A stretch of 52,851 nt of DNA from Methanosarcina sp. Ant1 (GTDB lineage Archaea > Halobacteriota > Methanosarcinia > Methanosarcinales > Methanosarcinaceae): assembly GCA_001714685.2 (NCBI GenBank), contig MDTP02000055.1, forward strand, positions 1-52,851. The letters run 5' to 3'. A program made the position numbers and the translations under genes. Below the pieces are notes generated by a model that was not told the origin of the DNA, did not search any database, and saw only the letters and a list, made by a program, of their open reading frames with translations. Below are positions 768 to 51,601 of the stretch, piece by piece (positions within the stretch are counted from its first letter, which is position 1; every line of letters starts with the position of its first letter).

Positions 768-1004
768 TTGACAAAATTCAGCCTGCTCGACCATGAGTCG
801 GTCCCTAAACATGAAATTATGTCTGAGGGCGAGTTAAAGTCTGTTTTAAGCAAATTTTCTATTGAAAAGGAACAACTTCCGAAAATCAAGGTGCAAGACC
901 CTGTTAGTAAGGAAATAGGAGCTGCCCTCGGAGATGTAGTAAAAATCACAAGAAAAAGTCAAACTGCAGGGGAGGCAGATTATTATCGACTTGTGATCGA
1001 GTAA
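768..1004 (+). CDS. rpoH: DNA-directed RNA polymerase subunit H (RPB5 C-terminal-like)
   Basis: This 78-residue protein is the small archaeal RNA polymerase subunit H. It corresponds to the C-terminal assembly domain of eukaryotic RPB5 and sits on the lower jaw of the enzyme. The usual start of the family is present (LLDHESVPKHEIMS), as is the conserved core PKIKVQDPVSKEIGA with the C-terminal motif DYYRLV. Length is normal. Translation begins at TTG 768, placed 7 nt after the strong GGAGG at 756-760. It is the first gene of the polymerase cluster and is separated from rpoB2 by about 210 bp. The leader at 742-767 is nearly identical to the 26-bp repeats at 91-246. Confidence 0.95.
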   Translation: MTKFSLLDHESVPKHEIMSEGELKSVLSKFSIEKEQLPKIKVQDPVSKEIGAALGDVVKITRKSQTAGEADYYRLVIE

Positions 1005-1218
1005 GCGGAGGGGAAACGTAACCGTTTACAAGATCATAATTTTTTTCAAGGAATGTCTTTTTGAATCCCATGCACCATCGTAAGGAAATACTCAACGACT
1101 GCATACAGATCTGAAGTTCATAGCTTATCGATTTTCACTTTAATAAAGCAAAGAGGGTGCTATCATCACGTTAGACAGTAGTATACTATCGCAGGCTTAT
1201 TTTACACGGGACAAGATA

Positions 1219-2814
1219 GTGCAGCACCATATCGATTCATTTAATAAGTTTATCGATTACGGGCTGCAAAAGATCATAGACGAACAAAGAATTATAGAAA
1301 CTGACATTGAGGAGACCTATCTCAAACTCGGCAAGATCAGAGTAGAACATCCCGTGGTAAAAGAGGCAGACGGGGCAATCGAAAAGCTTTACCCAAATGA
1401 GGGAAGACTCAGAAACCTCTCATACTCAGGCCCTCTCTACCTGGAAATGAGTGTGGTAAAAGAGGGAATCGAGTCCGAGGTCATGGAAGCAAAGATTGGA
1501 CAGCTTCCGATTATGATTAAGTCCAAGATCTGCAACCTTCTGGGGCTTAGCGAGATTGAAAAAGTCCGCTATGGAGAAGATCCCCTTGATCCTGGGGGGT
1601 ACTTCATTATTGGCGGTACCGAAAGAGTGGTCATGACCCTTGAAGACCTCGCCCCGAACAAAATCCTTGTCGAGTATGGAGAAAGATACGGCGATGATAT
1701 CGAGGTTGCAAAAGTCTTCTCCCAGAAGCGCGGGTACAGGGCACTCGTAATCGTAGAAAGAGGGAGAAAGTCCTTGCTCGAAGTTTCTTTCCCTTCAATC
1801 TCAGGAAGAGTATTTTTTATTACCCTCATGAGGGCTCTTGGAATTGTAACTGATGAGGATATCGTAAACGCAGTTTCAAGTGATCCCGAAATTATCAAGT
1901 TCATGCTGGAAAATCTGGAAGAAGCAGAGGTCGAAACCCAGGAAGAAGCAATCGAGAAGATCGGGGCAAGGGTTGCTGCAGGGCAGGCCAAGGAATACCA
2001 GATAAAAAGAGCAAATTATGTCATTGACAGGTACCTTTTCCCTCATCTCGGAAATGATATGAGAGATAGACTCTCAAAGGCCCACTTCCTTGCAAGGATG
2101 GCTGAGTCCTGTTTCGAGCTGGCTCTTAAAAAGCGTTCAGAAGACGATAAAGACCACTATGCAAACAAAAGGCTGAAACTTGCAGGAGACCTGATGGAAG
2201 ACCTCTTTAGAGTATCTTTCAACAGGCTGGCAAGGGACATAAAGTACCAGCTCGAGCGCGCAAATATGCGGAACAGAGAACTGAACGTTGCTACAATAGT
2301 TCGTGCAGACGTCCTAACTGACCGCCTTCAGCACCCCCTGGCAACTGGAAACTGGGTTGGAGGAAGAACCGGTGTGTCTCAGCTTCTGGACAGGAACGAT
2401 TATATCTCCACTCTTTCTCACTTGCGCCGTGTAATTTCCCCCCTTTCCCGTGCCCAACCACACTTTGAGGCCAGAGACCTGCATGCAACCCAGTGGGGAA
2501 GGCTATGTCCTTCAGAAACCCCTGAAGGTCCGAATTGTGGCCTGGTGAAAAACTTTGCTGAGATGGTTGAGCTCTCTACAGGTGTAGAAGAGACAGAAGG
2601 CATGAAGAAAATACTCTATGACCTGAACGTCGAACGTGTGGTTGTAAAGGTGCCGGAAATCCCGGCCAGAATAAAAGAGATCTTACTTGACGAGTTCGGA
2701 GAAGAAATCATCGAGGAGTTTGAAGAAACTCCGGCAGCTGAAAGCAAATACAAAGATGAGGAATTCTACGATTATTCAGAAATGGACGATACCGGATCAA
2801 TTTTCGGTGATTAA
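1219..2814 (+). CDS. rpoB2: DNA-directed RNA polymerase subunit B'' (N-terminal half of beta)
   Basis: This is the N-terminal half of the split archaeal beta subunit, containing the protrusion, lobe and part of the fork. It ends in an acidic tail after about 531 residues. The conserved signature [19 protein letters not shown] lies near residue 428, and the family motif [15 protein letters not shown] opens the protein. GTG 1219 is the first canonical start, but it is probably not the real one. The same frame is open back to 1147 and encodes [18 protein letters not shown] (from 1171), which matches the conserved RpoB'' N-terminus. A good ribosome site (GAGGGTG, 1153-1159) lies just before it, yet there is no ATG, GTG or TTG in that stretch, only ATC, ATC, ACG and TTA. 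Initiation at a non-standard codon, a sequence error or a mutated TTG at 1171 are the options. rpoB1 follows after 14 bp. Confidence 0.95.
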
Positions 2815-41390: not shown

Positions 41391-42404
41391 TCACCCCTGC
41401 TTGGATTCCCTGCTTATATGAAGGATGTTCGGTTCGCCAAGGTCGGCTTTCTTTGCCCTGATAGGGTCTCTGAGTCTGATAAGCCTCTTAGAAGGTCCGG
41501 GGACACTGCCTTTGATCAGCACATAATCTCCGCGGATAAGGCCGTAATTCAGAAAACCACCATCTGGAGTTACCTCTGCACCGTTGGAACCGATCTTAAG
41601 GATGCGCTTGTTGAATTCGGTTCTCTGGTGATATCCCATCTGACCCATCTGGGGAACTCTCCAGGAAACGTGAGCAGGATGCCAGGGACCAAGAGTACCG
41701 ATCTGCCTGAGGCTGCCCTGTCTGGAGTGCTTGCCTTTCTGAAGCTGAATGCCCCATCTTTTGACAGGACCCTGGGTACCTTTTCCAATGGTAATTGCGG
41801 CTGTGTCAACAAGTATTCCGGTCTTGAAAACGTCGGTGACGCTTACAAGGGTGCCAAGAATTGACTTTGCGAACTCGAATTTGGTGTTGAGATCCCTTGC
41901 GCTGATCCCGGATTCCATGATATCGGGCGTCTTTTTGGGAACACCGGTAAGGCTCTTTGGCAGGGTGTAGGTAACTGCCCTGATGTCGCTTACCTTACCT
42001 TCTTCGATCAATTTCCCAATCGTTTCAAGGGTTTCGTCCACGTGTTCAGCCACTGGTAAATGGATCCTGCGCTTGAGTTCTGGATCGAGATCAGCTGCCC
42101 ATGCTTCAGCGATTGCCTTTTCTCCGAAGCTGTCTTCTGCGTAAGCGCGGACGGCTGCGACCCTTATTGCAGGAGTTTCGATGACAGTCACAGGTACGGA
42201 GATCTCCATACCCTGGGTAAGGCTGTTCTTTATGTCATCAACCATGATTATGTGGGTCATCCCCACCTTGTACCCTGCAAAACTCTGTAGCCTTGGTTCA
42301 CCTGTAGCCTCTGGCCAGGCCCTGAACCGTGGAATGTGGCTCTTCGCCCTTTTGCGCGGACTGAATGCGAGGGAACCTCGTTTTGGTCGGTGTATGCTTG
42401 CCAT
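41391..42404 (-). CDS. rpl3: 50S ribosomal protein L3 (uL3)
   Basis: This 337-residue protein is the first gene of the ribosomal operon. It has the archaeal N-terminus [22 protein letters not shown] and [18 protein letters not shown]. The W-loop region ([27 protein letters not shown]) is followed by [13 protein letters not shown]. It forms a binding site near the peptidyl-transferase centre. ATG 42404 follows GGAGTAGAA. A leader of about 700 nt precedes it. Confidence 0.96.
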
Positions 42405-43132
42405 ATTTCTACTCCGTAAATTTCAATTGAAATACCAGCCCCTCCGGTCGGCGCAACTCAAGTGACAAAAGAAAAATGCACTGGATTCCCCGAACGCTAC
42501 CAGGTATGGGAGGGATGTCTTTCAGACCTGCCTGGCAGAAAAGCCTCGAGCAGACCAGAGCTTTATGCTCCCGGTACCCTAATTCCTTCAGGTATCTGCA
42601 AATATCCGATCCTTTCCCCGCAGTCTCTGCAGGAGCATACGCTTAAAGGACCGATTTTACGACCCTGGCAGACCCAAATCCAGCCATTCGGCCCTGATTT
42701 GAAACATTTAGCAATCTGATTCGAAACTTCAGTATTCAGTAACCTGATCTTGAACTCAGTAACCTGATCTTGAACTCAGTGACCTGATCTTGAACTCAGT
42801 AACCTGATCTTGAACTCAGTAACCTGACTTGAAACTTCAACATTCAGCAACTGCAACCGCAACTCATCGAAAACCTAAACAGTTTCGTGCAATTTTAGGC
42901 GCCTTCGAGGCACCAAAAGCGGGCGTTTCAAAGCATTGGCCCTTTGACACTTATGTTGATCCGACTTTTCTCACTGGATTTATCTTCAATGCAGGAAATT
43001 CTACCAAATCAACGGCAGAAAACCCAATTTCCTGGACACTTCCAGGAACTTAGCATTAAGCATCACATTGATCCTGTTAAACGATTTCAGGCACTTCGGT
43101 GCTTGAAATCTCAATCTCGGATGTACTTTGCC
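42405..43132 (-). other. Long leader of the S10 operon with structured candidate element
   Basis: From the promoter near 43140 to rpl3 there are about 700 bp with no standard gene. The part 42450-42690 is richer in G and C. On the minus strand ATGCTCC pairs with GGAGCAT (42638-42632 and 42571-42565), enclosing a hairpin CCTGCAG/CTGCGGG (42633-42627, 42623-42617, loop AGA). A frame open across 42560-42780 reads CQGRKIGPLSVCSCRDCGERIGYL but has no usable start codon. The leader may be a regulatory RNA for ribosomal-protein control, or hold a decayed zinc-ribbon gene. Confidence 0.4.
42741..42835 (-). repeat. 20-bp tandem repeats in the S10-operon leader
   Basis: Four adjacent 20-bp units AACCTGATCTTGAACTCAGT start at 42741, 42761, 42781 (with one change, GACC) and 42801, followed by a diverged partial copy. 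More degenerate units precede from about 42690. The array lies within the predicted leader of rpl3. Confidence 0.93.
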
Positions 43133-43158
43133 TTTAAATAGCACATCTAATATATAAA
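43133..43158 (-). promoter_or_regulatory. Promoter of the S10 ribosomal operon
   Basis: On the minus strand GGGTTTATATATTAGATGTGC...CTATTTAAAGG holds two TATA-type boxes (43158-43151 and 43140-43133). The latter follows the 16-bp motif ATATTAGATGTGCTAT (43153-43138), exactly shared with the secY promoter. A start near 43105-43125 is predicted. Confidence 0.55.
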
Positions 43159-43159
43159 C

Positions 43160-43742
43160 CCTTTGTAGATACAAGAAGAAAAAGAAGAGAAGAATCAGTG
43201 ACAGGTGAGAAAAATGTAAATAAATTGGACGGCCCGGTCTGGACAAGCTGCCGCTGAAGTAATCAAAATGTTTTATCAGAACCCACGTTTGATCGATTCT
43301 AAAAATTCTGGTTGTGGCTGCGGTTCCAGCAGGATAGTTGCGAACCGGGTTTAATGTAAGGGATATCATCTAAGAGATAGAACACCGGGATAATAGTATT
43401 AATACATACATAACAACTCATTTCGAGTTGCACTATATTATAGTACGGCCAGGGTAACAAAACTCTTCAATACAGGCTGTCTCAAAAAATACTGTAGTAC
43501 CAACTGCCCTGTACAAAGTGGAAATGAATGATGTGAGCTTCAGGATTGTCTCAAGGATTGAAAAGGGTCAAAAATCAGAAAATCCAGAAACTTTTAAAGC
43601 TTTTTTCACAAAAGACATAATCATAAGAAGAATCTTAAAAATAATTATAAGAAGATTTGATTTGGCTCATTCGTTAGCCCTTTTTGATGTTTACCAGCAG
43701 CTTCAGGTAGAACTTATGCAGTTGAACTGAAAAACTAGTAGA
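43160..43742. other. Spacer with IS-end-like sequences
   Basis: No supported gene. CAGGCTGTCTCAAAAAATAC near 43477 resembles the ends of some insertion sequences. A 70-codon frame from 43518 (MEMNDVSFRIVSRIEKG...) has no ribosome site and no recognised family; it may be a transposase remnant or chance. TAGAACTTATGCAGTTGAACTG near 43709-43730 is a second, degenerate left end of the MITE-like element that follows. Confidence 0.35.
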
Positions 43743-43861
43743 TATAGGAGTTACGCAGTTGAAATGAGAAAACATTAGCATGAAACTTAAAAATCTAAAT
43801 CATAATATTTATGATGGCTGTGTCATGCTTTATTTTGATCCTCAAGTGCGTAATTCCTATA
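43743..43861. mobile_element. MITE-like inverted-repeat element, copy A
   Basis: A 119-bp element with terminal inverted repeats TATAGGAGTTACGCA (43743-43757) and TGCGTAATTCCTATA (43847-43861), matching at 14 of 15 positions when reversed. There is no coding capacity. The interior right part (ATGCTTTATTTTGATCCTCAAGTGCGTAA) is nearly identical to copy B at 45290-45405. It looks like a non-autonomous derivative of an insertion sequence; the parent is not in the window. Confidence 0.7.
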
Positions 43862-44040
43862 AGGAAAAATTCCTAATATATTTTTTGATTTAGGTATCAA
43901 GAATCTTACTACTTATGCAATCCGACTCAGAACTGTATGGGCGAATCGTTATCGATCCACATTGTACAGTCAGTTTGGTCCATAGTTTAATCAATTACAC
44001 AGCTGTTGCAAGTGTTGTAGACGATGCCGAGCGAGCCGAC

Positions 44041-44418
44041 TCACAAGAGCCAGCTGGCGCCCAAGACATTATCATCAAGACCGTCCCAGACACCATCATC
44101 AAGACCGCTCCAGCATTCAAATCCATCATTTTTGAAAGCGTTGAAAAACTCCTGCCAGGTTGGGGTGGTATCGCAACATTTATTGCAACCACTGCAACCA
44201 CAGCCGCAATTAGGGCCGCAAACATGGTTGCAACCGCAAGTCGAGCAAGTCTTTGCTACGCAACCACAGCCGCAACCACTGTTGCAAACATGGTTGCAAC
44301 CGCAAGTCGAGCAAGTCGTCGGCCAAGGCGTTGCGCTTACTGACGAAGCAGTCAATGACATTACAAAAAGGACTGCCAGTAAAATACCAACTGTCTTTTT
44401 TACTATTTGTTTCCCCAT
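44041..44418 (-). CDS. Secreted cysteine-rich repeat protein A
   Basis: This 125-residue protein has a signal peptide (MGKQIVKKTVGILLAVLFVM, cleavage after about SSVSA, residue 29) and 18 Cys in the mature part. Two tandem copies of TCSTCGCNHVCxxxCGCGC begin at residues 35 and 57 (period 22), followed by SGCNKCC. The C-terminal 40 residues are acidic and Trp-rich (ECWSGLDDGVWDGLDDN). No known family is recognised; CxxC and CxC density suggests metal binding (metallothionein-like) or many disulfides outside the cell. It is paralogous to protein B (45644-46024), with the same signal type, promoter region and downstream MITE. Confidence 0.82.
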   Translation of the reverse strand: MGKQIVKKTVGILLAVLFVMSLTASSVSATPWPTTCSTCGCNHVCNSGCGCGCVAKTCSTCGCNHVCGPNCGCGCSGCNKCCDTTPTWQEFFNAFKNDGFECWSGLDDGVWDGLDDNVLGASWLL

Positions 44419-44572
44419 CTATGTTCACTCTCCAAACTTTGCTTAATTTGATACTATTTTGATATTGTTGGTTTTTCGATTCGCTCTCCTTCGGAATATA
44501 TAGTGCTGAAAATTATTTTGCCAATTAATCATCAAGATTTATTTCTTGATGGTTATATATTGGTAAATTAGA

Positions 44573-44668
44573 TCCTCATTTATAATCGGATGGAATTGAT
44601 TTCGAATTGTACCAACAAATTGTATCATCAGTAAATTATTATCCCTTGGATATAATATGTAAAGAAAA
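44573..44668 (-). promoter_or_regulatory. Conserved upstream region of Cys-rich gene A
   Basis: A block from TCCTCATTTATAAT to ATTATTATCCCTTGGATATAA is shared, with small changes, with 46177-46274 upstream of gene B. It includes TATA-like sequences on the minus strand (ATTATAAAT near 44586-44578, and TTATATCC near 44652). Another TATA-like ATATATAA lies nearer, at 44561-44553. Similarity between the two copies suggests shared regulation; the exact start is uncertain. Confidence 0.45.
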
Positions 44669-45289
44669 ATAAATTAGAAACCATTATTATTTAAAAACGA
44701 TTTTTTTTAATCTTTTTCTATGTTGGATTAATTTTTATACAACTATCCAAATTCAAATGACATTTGGCCAACATCATCTTTTCCTTTTTAATTAAAGTAC
44801 AATTATTCTTCTTTTTTTCTGAAATTTTGCTATTAGCTAGAGCTGTAATATAAAGTATCATAATGCAGTTCTTATATTATCCGAGAAAGGAAAATAATTA
44901 AAACTTTCATGAATCGTGATCTTTAAAGCCAGTTTTTACAAAACTTCTCCAAAATATTCAGTAATATGAAGTTATAAATGGTAGAAATTTTGGTTTCGGT
45001 GCTTCAAACTTATGGCTATTTTTGCTTCAAATCGATAGCATGCAGGGAAGAAAATTCGTTGTTCAATGAATAAATTCAAAAGTTCAGGTTTATGAATATA
45101 TTTTGGAATCGCAGTAATTGACAGTGGAAACGAGTTATAGAAACCAAGGGATTGTTTCGTGGACTGAAGCAGAATCGAAAATTAGAAACTTCCGAATTTT
45201 TGTAATTTATTAAAAAACGTAGTTGATCATAAAAAATGTAAAATAAACTCATTCGTCTACTTACACCATGGTCGACAGTCAGTTTCAGG
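44669..45289. other. AT-rich spacer upstream of gene A
   Basis: No gene is seen. TTTTTGCTTCAAATCGATAGCA with following AAGAAAAT (45020-45055) recurs near 46585-46620 upstream of gene B, showing that the duplicated unit extends this far. Confidence 0.5.
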
Positions 45290-45405
45290 TAGGACTTACG
45301 CAGTCAAATTGAAAGCCCGGTAGCATGGGCTTTAAACTGATTTAATTACATTATTTATGAGGGTATGCTTATGCTTTATTTTGATCCTCAAGTGCGTAAG
45401 TTCCA
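45290..45405. mobile_element. MITE-like inverted-repeat element, copy B
   Basis: A 116-bp element with ends TAGGACTTACGCA (45290-45302) and TGCGTAAGTTCCA (45393-45405), 11 of 13 positions matching. Its right half, ATGCTTTATTTTGATCCTCAAGTGCGTAA, is nearly the same as in copy A. It is non-coding and lies about 240 bp beyond the 3' end of Cys-rich gene B, as copy A lies beyond gene A. Confidence 0.7.
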
Positions 45406-45643
45406 TCAGGAAAGACTATCTTATAAATTTATAGATTTTGAGAAAGGTTAAGGGCCTTACTGCCCCTGTAACCGACTCCGGGCTCAACGAATGAGTTCTT
45501 GGTTCTACATTTCATAGACTTTGATATAGATTTTTTATTTTTATTCTTCCATCTAAACAGTAGATATTTATCCTAACAGTTTAGTCCATGGTTCGACTAG
45601 TCAGAAGTTAGCGATTGAGATCTTTGCCGAAACAACCGCTAAG

Positions 45644-46024
45644 TTACCAGCCCCAATCGTTGAACCAGTTCCCATCGCCACCCGTGGCACAACCAGCACG
45701 AACAGCAGTTATGAAGCAACCTTTTTTCTCATCATCACAGCCGCATTTGTTGCAACCGTCCCAGCCGCATTTGTTACAACCGTCCCAGCCGCATTTGTTG
45801 CAACCACCACAGCCACATTTGTTGCAACCGCCGTCGCCTAACCATTTACCCGGGAACCAGTTGCCCAATCCTTTCCCGTCACCTAACCAGTTGCCCAATC
45901 CGATGCCGTCGCCGCATTTGTTGCATTTGTTGCAACCGCCGCAACCAGCACTTGCTGCCGCAGCTGTCATTGACACTACAAATAAGACTGCTAGCAAAAT
46001 GCCTATTGTCTTTATATTCCTCAT
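45644..46024 (-). CDS. Secreted cysteine-rich repeat protein B
   Basis: This 126-residue protein begins with a signal peptide (MRNIKTIGILLAVLFVVSMT, cleavage near AASA, residue 26). The mature part has 16 Cys, most in GCNKC units: GCGGCNKCNKC after the signal, then GCNKCGC and two GCNKCGWD repeats of 8 residues at about 74-94. A Gly/Trp-rich linker holds GLGNW twice (42-57), and the end is CFITAVRAGC plus a Trp-rich tail. ATG 46024 is chosen because GGAGTGG lies 8 nt upstream. It is a paralogue of protein A by signal peptide, Cys richness and flanking DNA. Function is unknown; extracellular metal binding or a cell-surface role is inference. Confidence 0.82.
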   Translation of the reverse strand: MRNIKTIGILLAVLFVVSMTAAAASAGCGGCNKCNKCGDGIGLGNWLGDGKGLGNWFPGKWLGDGGCNKCGCGGCNKCGWDGCNKCGWDGCNKCGCDDEKKGCFITAVRAGCATGGDGNWFNDWGW

Positions 46025-46176
46025 TTGTATCCACTCCAAACTTTTGTCTATTTTGATACAATTTCAATTATGAGTTTTTCAATCAACTTTCAGTCGAAGA
46101 TGCATTTACTTTACCAATAAATCCCCATATTTTTTGTTTGATAGAGTGTAGTAAAAGTATGCTATGATAAGTTCGG

Positions 46177-46274
46177 TCCTCTTTTTATACACAGAGGATT
46201 TGCCGACGAAAGTGATTTCTAATTGTATCACAAGGAGATTATTATCCATAGAATATAATATATAACGAAATATA
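46177..46274 (-). promoter_or_regulatory. Conserved upstream region of Cys-rich gene B
   Basis: TCCTCTTTTTATACACAGAGG...AATTGTATCACAAGGAGATTATTATCC...GAATATAATATATAA matches 44573-44668. On the minus strand GTATAAAAAGAGG near 46190-46178 is a good TATA box, giving a start about 25 nt nearer the gene and a leader of about 130 nt. Confidence 0.45.
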
Positions 46275-46954
46275 ACTCAGTAATTTATTGATCATAACCA
46301 ATAATAGTTAGTTTAAGTTTCATATATTTATCTTCAATAATTTTATTTTTAGAATCATTTATATAATGTGATAATATTTCATTAATTAAACCAAATTTAC
46401 AACTTTAGTCTAAAGTCAGTCTATTTTGTATCTTACATGTGATACATAATGATAACTCGCCCTTTAATTGGCATTATCCCAAATAATTCATTTAAATATT
46501 CATTGATGTTACGTTTAAATCCATTAACGGGTAGAGGTTCTGTGCTCTAAATTTTGAACTGTAATTTTGAACGTAAATTAGAATTTTTGCTCTAAGATCG
46601 ATAGCACACAGACAAGAAAATATTTTCACCGAATGATCAAAGGATATTGATTTCATATTTGAATCATCAAGCTAAATTCAATAATTGTAGAAAAGCATCC
46701 CGAAGCCAAAATAAAAAACTATGATTGACTAAAAAGTTAAACAGAAGAGCTACCCTAAACTAAACCAGAAATGAAAAATGAGTAGAGTTTATATCATAAG
46801 ATAAGAGTTTTAGATAAACCAAAATGGGGAAAAGTAAATCGCCATTGATAATTTCAAGATACAACACGCAGAAAAGACTAAAAAGTATGAAAAAAATAAA
46901 GCTGAGAAAAAGCCTAAAAAGGCTATTTTCAGATTACAGGCAGGACAATTTCCG
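46275..46954. other. AT-rich spacer upstream of gene B
   Basis: No gene is seen in these 680 bp. TTTTTGCTCTAAGATCGATAGCA with following AAGAAAAT (46584-46620) is the counterpart of 45020-45055. After about 46640 no further similarity to the upstream copy is apparent. Confidence 0.5.
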
Positions 46955-47362
46955 ATGAAAATTATTGTAGAAACGCCAAAATACAGCTTTTGGAAGTATT
47001 GCAGGACAGAAAAAGGATATGAAAGAGCTTTCTTTTCCCCTTTGCCTACAATTTTCAACTACGGCTTCATAGAAGGAACAGAAAGTCCTGATGGTATGGA
47101 AGAAGACGTAGTCGTGCTGGGTCCTCGCCTGCCGAGAGGAAGTACACTTGAAAGAGAAAATTTTGACGGGATAGTGAGATTCCTGGATGATTCTGTCAGG
47201 GACGACAAGAAAGTGATCTATATCAGCGGGTTTTATTCTCCTTTTCTGCTTGCTTTTTATTTCAGGCTTTACGCCCTTTTCAAAGTCTTCCTCTATGCCT
47301 TCCAAGAAGGAAAAATCACAACATGCAGATTTGAAGGAATTGTGCTCCGAAAATTACACTGA
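46955..47362 (+). CDS. Inorganic pyrophosphatase-like protein, short and degenerate
   Basis: The first 60 residues match the soluble inorganic pyrophosphatase family: IVETPKYSFWKYCRTEKGYERAFF, then PTIFNYGFIEGTESPDGMEEDVVVLGPRLPRG. In real enzymes the loop reads DGDPLDVLVL; here the middle acidic residue is lost (DGMEEDVVVL). The protein is only 135 residues and ends in a hydrophobic stretch (FYSPFLLAFYFRLYALFKVFLYAF) that could be a membrane segment. Hydrolysis of pyrophosphate is therefore doubtful. ATG 46955 has AGGA 9 nt upstream. It converges with, and overlaps by 9 bp, the DUF1508 gene. Confidence 0.75.
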   Translation: MKIIVETPKYSFWKYCRTEKGYERAFFSPLPTIFNYGFIEGTESPDGMEEDVVVLGPRLPRGSTLERENFDGIVRFLDDSVRDDKKVIYISGFYSPFLLAFYFRLYALFKVFLYAFQEGKITTCRFEGIVLRKLH

Positions 47363-47569
47363 TACCTGTGTTTCCTTTTTTATTTCCAGTTCCTCTTCCA
47401 GTATGACAATACGTGCACCTGAAGCATTTAATTTTACGGATTTGATGCCTTTCAGGCATCCCTCCTTACTTTTATAGCACTGACTCACAGCTATTATCTG
47501 CCCATTTCTTGCTCTCAACCTGAAATGGTATCCTCCCATTTCATCCGAATATACTTCAAATTTTGGCAT
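47354..47569 (-). CDS. DUF1508 (YegP-like) protein
   Basis: This 71-residue protein is a single YegP/DUF1508 domain: FEVYSDEMGGYHFRLRARNGQIIAVSQCYKSKEGCLKGIKSVKLNASGA, matching the family pattern (F..Y.D..G.Y.FRL...NG..IA.S..Y.SK..C..GI.SVK.N). The function of the family is unknown; in some bacteria it is stress-linked. ATG 47569 lies after TGGGGG. The 3' end overlaps that of the pyrophosphatase-like gene on the other strand. Confidence 0.9.
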   Translation of the reverse strand: MPKFEVYSDEMGGYHFRLRARNGQIIAVSQCYKSKEGCLKGIKSVKLNASGARIVILEEELEIKKETQVSV

Positions 47570-48190
47570 TTTTCCCCCATTTTTAGTTTATAAAACAAAC
47601 TTTGAAATCTTGTTGTTATGTGCCTGAAATATAAGACGATTTAAATTAGGCTCATTTCCTCCCTGAGTGAGTTATAACTCATGGAAGATATTTAGCTCTA
47701 CTTATTAAAATAATATTCTATGGAAATTTTTTTAGAGTTGAACTACAAGTCCCATGGAGTTCACTAAGGTGTTAGAAAATAGAATAATAATTAAAATAAT
47801 TCAGTATTCCACCCCAATGCCTTTTAATAGCATTTCTGCTTCAGTTATTGGAATTATTCGATATGAATCGCCCAATTACATTTTTGAGATGTTGTTCAGT
47901 TTCTCTACAAATTTATGAATCCTAAACTCGTAGAGACTTTTACTATATTATATTCCTTCACAGTCTGTAAATTATTATTATTAAAATGAAAAATCTTTAT
48001 TTTGCTTTTCACTTGTAATTTTATTAACAGAACAATAAAACAATATTTACTTTAAAAAATAGTTGTGAAGAAAAATGAATGTAAACTGGCGATTTTCTTT
48101 TTTGAAATTGCTGGTATCCTTTTCCTTGGAGGCCCAAAAACTTACAAATTTAAACAAAAATCGGTTTTCCAGCCTCCAAAAAAAGATTTT
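47570..48190. other. AT-rich spacer
   Basis: No supported gene lies in these 621 bp. A 72-codon plus-strand frame from 48065 overlaps the end of the oxidoreductase gene and has no recognisable features. The end of the spacer holds a T-rich minus-strand stretch suited to termination of the oxidoreductase transcript. Confidence 0.5.
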
Positions 48191-49621
48191 TCAGTCTTCA
48201 AACCCCATATGTTTGAGGAAGTGATGGTAGTGTTCCAGTGGCATCCGAGAATAGAATGCTCTGGTTATAACCTCACTCAGTGAGGGGTGGATGTCCATAC
48301 TATGCATGATTGGTTCCGTACTTCTTGATTCCGTATACATTAGAGGGATTATCTGATGGATCAGGATTGAAGCATGAGGCCCTATAATATGGGCGCCCAG
48401 AATTTTCTCTTCCTCCGCATCCAGAATCACCTTTACGAAGCAGTCCTTGATTTTCATGGCCGCTCCTTTTGCAGTATCTTCAAAAAATTTGAGGCCTATG
48501 ACCACCCTATCCTTCCCGTACTTCTCTACGGCTTCCTTCTCCCCCATGCCTACCCCAGCAATCTCAGGATAAGAAAAGACCGCATGAGGGACAGCATGGT
48601 AGTTTGCCTTCACTTTTTCTTTCATGATAGCATTCAGGTAAACTATTCCGGACTCATAGTTCCCTACATGCTTGAGCAGATATTTTCCGTTTGCATCACC
48701 AAAAGCCCACACATTTGGCTGAGATGTCTCAAGATACTCGTTCACCAGAATCCAGCCCTGCATGTCTGTTTTGATCCCAGCCCTTTCGGGATGTAGAATA
48801 TCGGTATTTGGAACTCTTCCTGTTGCTACGAGGATTTCATCTACAGTAATCCTTACCTCTTCTCCCGATTTTTTTTCCTTTGCAACCACCGTTTTCTGTC
48901 CGTTATCTTCTTTTCTAACTTCTATTACTTCGTAATTTGTAAGGATCTTCATATACTCCGACATTTTTATCCTGGCAAGTTTGGAGATTTCGGGCTCTTC
49001 CTGAGGAAGAAACTGGGAATTCCTTCCGATAACCGTGACTTCAGCTCCCATGGCCGAAAAAAAGTTCCCGTACTCGGCTGCAATATAACCTCCACCAAGA
49101 ATTGCGAGACTTTTGGGGCACTCATCAAGTTGAAGCACAGTGTCACTTGTAAGATAGCCAGTCTTTTCAAGTCCGTCAACCGGAGGAATTGCAGGTCTTG
49201 AGCCAGTACACAGGAAAATCATATTAGAGTTAAGCGTTTTATCGCCCACTTTCAGGGTATAAGGAGAAATGAACTCCGCACTTTCATGATAGTAGTCAAG
49301 GTATGGGTTTTCGGTTAACCCCTCCTTGATCGCCTCTATATCTTCTCCTATTTTACTCCGCATTCTTCCCATGATCGCGAGGAAATCAATGTCTTTTATC
49401 TCAAGCTTGATTCCAAAAAGCGGTGCATTTTCCAGTTCCCTCACAAGCTCAGCAGGGTAGAGCAAAAGTTTAGAAGGGATGCACCCTCTGGTAAGACAGA
49501 TCCCTCCAGGTTCGTCCTTATCGATAACAGCAATTTTTATTTTCGGATTCGAATTGATGATAGGGTTTATGTAGTTCATTGCAGAACCCGTGCCTATCAC
49601 AATCAGGTCGTAATTTTCCAT
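48191..49621 (-). CDS. Class I pyridine nucleotide-disulfide oxidoreductase (dihydrolipoamide dehydrogenase-like)
   Basis: This 476-residue flavoprotein has the FAD-binding start YDLIVIGTGSA (residues 4-14). The redox-active disulfide is GGICLTRGCIPSK (about 39-51; Cys separated by four residues). The NAD(P)-binding motif is LAILGGGYIAAEYG, and the second FAD motif is VWAFGDANG. A C-terminal dimer domain carries the catalytic-base region SMDIHPSLSEVI. The family includes dihydrolipoamide dehydrogenase, mycothione and mercuric reductases; the first FAD motif is unusual (GTGSAMNYI in place of GGGPGG). There are no pyruvate dehydrogenase genes nearby, so the substrate is open. ATG 49621 follows GAGGGAAAAGA. 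It stands alone. Confidence 0.92.
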   Translation of the reverse strand: MENYDLIVIGTGSAMNYINPIINSNPKIKIAVIDKDEPGGICLTRGCIPSKLLLYPAELVRELENAPLFGIKLEIKDIDFLAIMGRMRSKIGEDIEAIKEGLTENPYLDYYHESAEFISPYTLKVGDKTLNSNMIFLCTGSRPAIPPVDGLEKTGYLTSDTVLQLDECPKSLAILGGGYIAAEYGNFFSAMGAEVTVIGRNSQFLPQEEPEISKLARIKMSEYMKILTNYEVIEVRKEDNGQKTVVAKEKKSGEEVRITVDEILVATGRVPNTDILHPERAGIKTDMQGWILVNEYLETSQPNVWAFGDANGKYLLKHVGNYESGIVYLNAIMKEKVKANYHAVPHAVFSYPEIAGVGMGEKEAVEKYGKDRVVIGLKFFEDTAKGAAMKIKDCFVKVILDAEEEKILGAHIIGPHASILIHQIIPLMYTESRSTEPIMHSMDIHPSLSEVITRAFYSRMPLEHYHHFLKHMGFED

Positions 49622-50836: not shown

Positions 50837-51601
50837 TTATTTTCGGCGGCCAGGATTGTGAGATTTGGACAGCGCTTCAAAGCCGGAGACGACTTCAAAC
50901 AGTTCTTCGTCGATTCCGCTCTGGCGCAAGCGGTAAAATGATCCGCTGAGATCTTCCAGCAATTCATCGATGTTTTTGTCAGCTCGCTGCATCGCTGCCA
51001 GGCGGCTTGCATTTTCACTTGCAAGGGATTCGGCGCATGCCCGGAAAAGCGACACGAAAAGATATTCGCGGATAAGTGCCCGCAAGGTCGCTGTGCCATC
51101 ACCAATTATTTCAGGCAAGTTTTTGGTCGGCCAGGGAAGTTTGGACAGATCGCGTTGCCATGTTTCATCCAGTGGCAGCAATCGCTGACTGACGGGCTCA
51201 TAAAACGTCCTGGATTTATGGCGATTGTAAAAGAGATGGAGTTCAGTGACTTCACCCTGGCTGTGGCGAGTCTCGCCCTCCACGAGAATCTGCCCGACGA
51301 GCGGGGTAATGGCCTTGACGGAATTCGGCACTGTGAACAGTCCCATCAGAGGTAGCCCCGCATCTGCCAGGCGTGCATGAACACGCTCACCGACAGCCCA
51401 AACCTGAGCTTTGCCTGGCAAAGTTGCCAGCGTCTTGACAGCATAATCGGCTACAACATCATTAAACTGGCCAACCAGTCCCTGGTCTGAACCGAACACG
51501 ATCGCATCAATTGCACCATCATCTTTCTGCCTTTTTCGTTCTACAGAAATGACAGGAAACCTTCTTAATGAACTCATCCCTAAAGCTATTTTATTAATCA
51601 T
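50837..51601 (-). pseudogene. atpG: Truncated F1Fo (N-type) ATP synthase gamma subunit, orphan
   Basis: The 254-codon frame contains the gamma-subunit core of the bacterial N-type ATPase: GAIDAIVFGSDQGLVGQFNDVVADYAV, then PLVGQILVE and the C-terminal helix EYLFVSLFRACAESLASENASRLAAMQRADKNIDELLEDL. The N-terminal helix of gamma (about 70 residues that enter the alpha3beta3 ring) is missing; the frame starts abruptly near MSSLRRFPVISVE. No other ATPase subunit gene lies nearby, and the base composition is less AT-rich than the surroundings. It looks like the 3' remnant of a transferred operon known from other Methanosarcina. It cannot act as a rotor. Confidence 0.85.

Follow-up and report, generated by a model that had tools for sequence, protein, structure and literature searches.

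A covariation-supported 5' leader RNA upstream of secreted-protein genes, two Cys-rich ones among them, in Methanosarcina

Two neighboring genes for Cys-rich secreted proteins

Why should two neighboring genes have similar flanks when the mature proteins they encode differ? The genes, here called P1 and P2, lie in the window, a 52,851-nt stretch of DNA from Methanosarcina sp. Ant1. A sequence-only reading of it had proposed that a unit of about 1.5 kb, comprising a MITE-like element, a gene and its upstream region, was duplicated in tandem to give two paralogues.

P1 (44041-44418, minus strand) codes for a secreted protein of 125 amino acids with 18 Cys, consisting of a signal peptide, 22-residue TCSTCGCNHVC repeats and a C-terminal PTWQEFFNAFKNDGFECWSG. 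P2 (45644-46024, minus strand) codes for a secreted Cys/Gly-rich protein with 16 Cys, in which a signal peptide is followed by GCNKCGWD repeats and a C-terminal CDDEKKGCFITAVRAGC. Its start is the ATG at 46024, which corrects an earlier start and gives 126 amino acids. At the DNA level, a 66-bp (22-residue) tandem repeat is found inside P1 (44194-44317, minus strand) and a 24-bp one with an 8-residue unit inside P2 (45738-45830, minus strand). The sequence-only reading was right in these respects: there are two minus-strand genes for small secreted proteins with the Cys numbers and internal repeats it had reported.

It had also assigned the proteins to no described family, and our searches bear this out. 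Neither P1 nor P2 matched an entry in Pfam or NCBIfam above the cut-off, and P2 had no match in either at E values up to 1. P1 was also searched against the PDB, with no match above the cut-off. Their relatives likewise gave nothing above the cut-off against protein families, with one sub-threshold Gly-rich match. AlphaFold models of P1 and P2, built on shallow alignments, have a mean pLDDT of 42, too low to be informative. The P2 tail, KKGCFITAVRAGC, is similar to what we take to be a CFI-box-like C-terminal motif, a short C-terminal stretch beginning Cys-Phe-Ile; however, two P2 relatives showed no such family at E values up to 10. A text search of the literature for the CFI-box name found no paper. 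The most plausible role of the two Cys-rich proteins would be to bind metals outside the cell or to form a disulfide-linked matrix.

Around them, from the ribosomal protein L3 gene to the Lpd gene (42404-49621), the window lacks synteny with the relatives compared, none of whose ribosomal L3 loci encodes P1, P2, DUF1508 or the Lpd protein nearby. A 20-bp tandem repeat (TCAGTAACCTGATCTTGAAC, 42736-42833) lies in about five copies just upstream of the L3 gene. The window also has a 26-bp tandem repeat in six perfect copies near the contig end (91-247) and an open frame (50837-51601) that appears, from its translation, to resemble a bacterial-type F1 ATP synthase gamma subunit.

We compared the two halves of the locus (43700-45250 against 45251-46700) by blastn. 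Similarity beyond chance, as the sequence-only reading had claimed, was found in three blocks. The E values were 1e-18 for the MITE block (74%), 7e-15 for the upstream block, which spans 362 columns at 66%, and 4e-5 for a shorter block of 39 bp lying further out. The blocks are colinear, with an offset of 1.54-1.62 kb. MITE-like copies are indeed present at two sites, one downstream of P1 (43745-43867, unstranded) with about 17 dispersed matches in the genome, the other between the P1 upstream region and the P2 stop (45283-45413, unstranded), identified by repeat and genome search. They are 75% identical and each other's best match among the ~17 genome matches. The proposed unit aligns only in the MITE, upstream and outer blocks; the coding regions align only in the signal peptide, and the alignment of the two proteins is limited to 16 signal-peptide residues.

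Architecture and distribution of the leader

We aligned the upstream regions of signal-peptide genes from the window's own genome (G000; 342 contigs, 99.99% complete). The conserved upstream flank is a 5' leader of ~165-180 nt that ends ~30 nt before the ATG. In the aligned regions the order is an AT-rich promoter-like block, TGATACAATT, AATCACTTTCRTCGGCA, conserved loops, TGCCGAYTGAAAGTGGATT, AATTGTATCA, a GGAG site and the ATG. The outer stem is TGATACAATT/AATTGTATCA and the second stem AATCACTTTCRTCGGCA/TGCCGAYTGAAAGTGGATT, both predicted by RNAalifold, with ACCAAT/ATTGGT as a weaker inner stem. The AT-rich block lies about 20-45 nt upstream of the outer stem, and from its position we infer that transcription begins at or just before this stem.

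Both genes of the locus have this arrangement. The leader of P1 (44449-44627, minus strand) includes a covariance-model match at 44449-44614, and a further TGATACAATT starts at 44627. That of P2 (46054-46230, minus strand) is a covariance-model match ending 29 nt before the ATG, with UGAUACAAUU/AAUUGUAUCA as outer and AAUCACUUUCGUCGG/UUCGACUGAAAGUUGAUU as second stem. The AT-rich stretches, to which we ascribe a putative promoter role, are at 44640-44690 for P1 (approximate limits, minus strand, conserved TTTCTTTACATATTATATCC) and at 46245-46280 for P2 (minus strand, conserved TTATATTTCGTTATATATTATATTC).

To find further copies, we trained a covariance model, R1, on 8 leaders of the own genome, partly found through this gene family; the genome-wide scan was unrestricted. 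R1 gave about 150 matches in 28 of the 31 Methanosarcina genomes, with 1-23 copies per genome and 23 places in the own genome. The P2 leader belongs to the training set; the P1 leader is outside it and was found at E 2.3e-10. A second model, R2, built from 106 matches, scored the P1 leader at E 4.1e-16 and detected the element again in these 28 genomes; 81 genomes from 13 other genera of the family gave no match, a search that doubles as a false-positive control. Searched against Rfam 15, the window and 20 leader-bearing loci gave no family at its gathering score except a tRNA elsewhere in the window, and a permissive scan of the locus gave chance-level matches only. In the open-access literature we found no paper describing the element, while long Methanosarcina 5' UTRs did turn up. 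Leaders of this kind are known; this uncatalogued RNA family stands out in that it precedes many genes for secreted proteins that are not linked to one another.

The spacing between leader and start codon is mostly 27-31 nt, with a mode of 29 nt, and the orientation is constant. A signal-peptide gene follows within 360 nt in 81 of 103 distinct copies, as judged by a home-made signal-peptide HMM, versus 174 (5.8%) of 3000 segments drawn at random from these loci. About seven further copies appear by eye to precede a signal peptide, bringing the number to about 88 of 103. By the HMM, the share is 11/21 in the own genome and 70/82 in the other genomes. The mature proteins are unrelated to each other. 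They include proteins with Asp/Lys/Cys repeats and an aromatic tail, Lys/Glu repeats with NNWFG, YVTN-like proteins with Thr/Pro/Glu repeats (YVTN assigned by eye), and proteins with Gly/His, GYKDG or WDG repeats; beta/gamma-crystallin, cupin and PKD are the Pfam domains encountered.

Three own-genome leaders (L237, L243 and L244, in G000:C171, C247 and C41) precede DUF2795-like genes coding for no signal peptide and form one clade among the leaders of that genome; the domain was confirmed with Pfam for the C247 protein and assigned by eye for those of C171 and C41. At ten loci (L235, L205, L206, L238, L240, L241, L242, L276, L287 and L291) the leader match has no intact ORF close behind; these could be decayed genes or free-standing RNAs. 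Clusters of genes for small secreted proteins with the same kind of signal peptide and no detectable leader are found at L013 (G000:C16) and L015 (G000:C47). At L033 (G000:C11:1500-7000), a 603-amino-acid open frame (930-2741, minus strand) with a signal peptide, 42 Cys and KDN-C-SDN type repeats is an extreme relative in style of P1 and P2; its leader match is weak only (E 0.68).

The leaders also bear on the origin of the P1/P2 pair. P2 and C194 are grouped in a tree of the 21 leaders (support 96/88). Leader identity is 79.5% for P2-C194, 73.5% for P1-P2 and 73% for P1-C158, placing P1 no closer to P2 than to C158. For the upstream DNA as a whole, the best match of P2 is C194 (76% over 339 bp) and that of P1 is C24. 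Mature P1 resembles only one protein of its genome, encoded on another contig (G000:C5:37719-38045, 64%); the repeats of the two differ and the C-terminal part PTWQExFxAFKNDGFECWSG is kept. Relatives of P2 are encoded on three other contigs of the own genome (C194, C72 and C68) and in one other species (L266), and CDDxKKGCF(I/V)TAVRAGC is their common C-terminus, seen in three aligned relatives and, for C68, in a search match only. P1 and P2 are not each other's closest relatives. Nor are the upstream block and the MITE private to the pair, since dispersed relatives of each are numerous in the own genome. Matches to part of the outer block were likewise found on other contigs.

A single local duplication of MITE, gene and upstream region, after which the mature proteins diverged quickly, would account for the colinear blocks and their offset, for the two MITEs being mutual best matches and for the 39-bp match. 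We nevertheless consider it quite improbable, because the P2 leader groups with C194, P1 is no closer to P2 than to C158, and the mature proteins fall into different subfamilies, each with closer relatives encoded on other contigs. What stands of the duplicated unit is a set of separate similar blocks; the derivation of P1 and P2 as paralogues from it is not supported. The observation that flanks are better conserved than mature proteins was correct as well, although it is explained by a structured leader RNA dispersed in the genus and not by recombination within the pair. The similarity of P1 and P2 is real but, judging by these comparisons, would mostly not stem from tandem gene duplication, with a shared local origin possible for the MITEs or the outer 39-bp block.

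Covariation in three helices

The leader is a folded structure supported by covariation in three helices. Among the 103 distinct sequences, 82.8% of cells at the model's pairs are paired, versus 35-49% with the partners slid. Double-change cells number 189, compared with 73.6+-9.6 after shuffling (0/500 shuffles), and the compensatory changes by which the secondary structure is kept are spread over 24 pairs. Because the alignment behind these pair counts, A2, had been fitted to the model, the counts are inflated. We therefore also swapped arms among the 95 non-training sequences, a test independent of column-by-column alignment. Own arms gave -19.5 kcal/mol and swapped arms -14.7 kcal/mol (z -13.3). 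Taken helix by helix, with arms cut from the model-fitted alignment, the second stem had a z of -10.3, the outer stem -8.0 and the inner ACCAAT/ATTGGT stem -5.2, versus -1.4 and -2.6 for controls. An innermost hairpin, UCUUCCAG/CUGGA, was also tried and is unsupported by arm swapping (z -1.2). The two leaders of the window fold better than their shuffles (z -3.4 for P2, -4.5 for P1). In a free mutual-information scan the signal was dominated by the relatedness of the sequences.

Could the inverted repeats act as DNA, either as a dispersed mobile element (MITE) or as paired operators for a looping dimeric regulator? They have the layout of terminal inverted repeats, copies are dispersed and other MITEs are nearby. 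The excess of G.U over A.C at paired cells (263 vs 143) is not decisive; column make-up alone expects 337/224 and so predicts most of the bias, and these counts do not separate RNA from DNA. We regard a role as DNA as unlikely, though, in view of the compensatory changes over 24 pairs, the constant spacing to the start codon, the inner covarying helix and the agreement of leader clades with downstream gene class. MITE insertion sites would be unrelated to gene starts, whereas the leaders are found ~30 nt before start codons. The MITE-like elements of the window are separate from its leaders.

The agreement with gene class raises another explanation. When 13 gene classes are placed on the leader tree only 17 changes are needed, and leader clades follow gene class; leader and gene are thus mostly inherited together. 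Along with the AT-rich promoter-like block that precedes it, this is what one would expect of a functionless untranslated remnant of a promoter region spread by gene duplication. Neutral sequence would not gather compensatory changes in three helices, however, nor would a remnant be expected to persist, ahead of genes whose mature proteins are unrelated, in 28 of 31 species, and we find this explanation very unlikely.

Proposed role and comparison with known systems

A functional RNA is the reading we prefer, and the leader probably acts in cis at the 5' end of the mRNA, stabilizing or co-regulating part of the secretome. It would begin near the inferred transcription start and end ~30 nt before the start codon, with the GGAG Shine-Dalgarno sequence in between. 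Its ends would pair as the outer stem, with the second long stem next and the third, inner stem inside. Together with the promoter-like block and the common signal peptide, it heads as many as about 20 genes in a Methanosarcina genome. These are unlinked, and most of them, P1 and P2 included, code for secreted proteins whose mature parts are unrelated. The leader may protect the message by capping its 5' end with a double-stranded structure, and/or a common regulator may bind to it, which would allow joint expression of these secretome genes. The ribosome-binding site would remain outside the conserved stems. An effect on stability or translation and a common signal are presumed. Against the leader reading are the own-genome counts: only 11 of 21 leaders precede a signal peptide by the HMM, three precede DUF2795 genes, and some lack an intact ORF.

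Occlusion of the Shine-Dalgarno sequence was considered and rejected. The candidate pairing segments, the 5' strand of the second stem (CACUUUC, which resembles a GGAGAGUG partner) and UCUUCCA, have some complementarity to it and show no covariation with it (z 0.8 and 0.2), a result that speaks against the most common design of a switch. In folds of single sequences, only about half of the Shine-Dalgarno region is unpaired on average. As the stems exclude this region and covariation with it is missing, we favor 5'-end protection and/or a regulator platform over occlusion.

It is possible that the leader is instead a ligand- or ion-sensing riboswitch, or a regulator-binding on/off leader, controlling the extracellular proteins together. 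Consistent with this are the three strongly covarying helices, separated by well conserved stretches, and the presence of one RNA before many functionally linked genes. It is made less likely than cis-acting stabilization or co-regulation by the lack of a covarying alternative pairing with the Shine-Dalgarno region, by genes that have secretion and no metabolite in common, and by restriction to the genus at the model's sensitivity. More tentative still is a genus-wide RNA regulon, in which the leader would sense one common cue, such as aggregation or the state of the envelope, of metals or of redox, and switch an extracellular toolkit of fast-evolving proteins on or off, with new secreted proteins recruited behind the cassette of leader and signal peptide.

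In bacteria, structured leaders common to many unlinked genes are well known; to our knowledge they are poorly documented in methanogenic archaea. The leader provides a ready set of surface and extracellular proteins that are candidates for co-regulation, in a genus for which genetic tools exist, making post-transcriptional control of an archaeal secretome testable. It also offers a handle on small, fast-changing Cys-rich secreted proteins that belong to no family.

Several known elements are similar in part. The dispersed inverted-repeat elements and MITEs of Methanosarcina are likewise dispersed, with inverted-repeat ends and a length of about 170-200 bp; the leader differs in its fixed position and orientation before start codons, its compensatory changes and its inner helix. 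Cis-regulatory leaders and riboswitches in Rfam (release 15) also have covariation-supported structure before coding regions, but none of these families reaches its gathering score on the leader loci. Long 5' UTRs with regulatory roles and post-initiation control have been reported in Methanosarcina (PMC3600222), and a half-life study of M. acetivorans (PMC5112694) is relevant to the question of stability. The leader of cdh, encoding CO dehydrogenase/acetyl-CoA synthase, and the methyltransferase 5' UTRs (PMC3600222) are likewise long and from the same genus. As described, they belong to single operons or isozymes, whereas the present leader recurs as a structured element ahead of unlinked and mostly secretory genes, about 1-20 of them in each genome.
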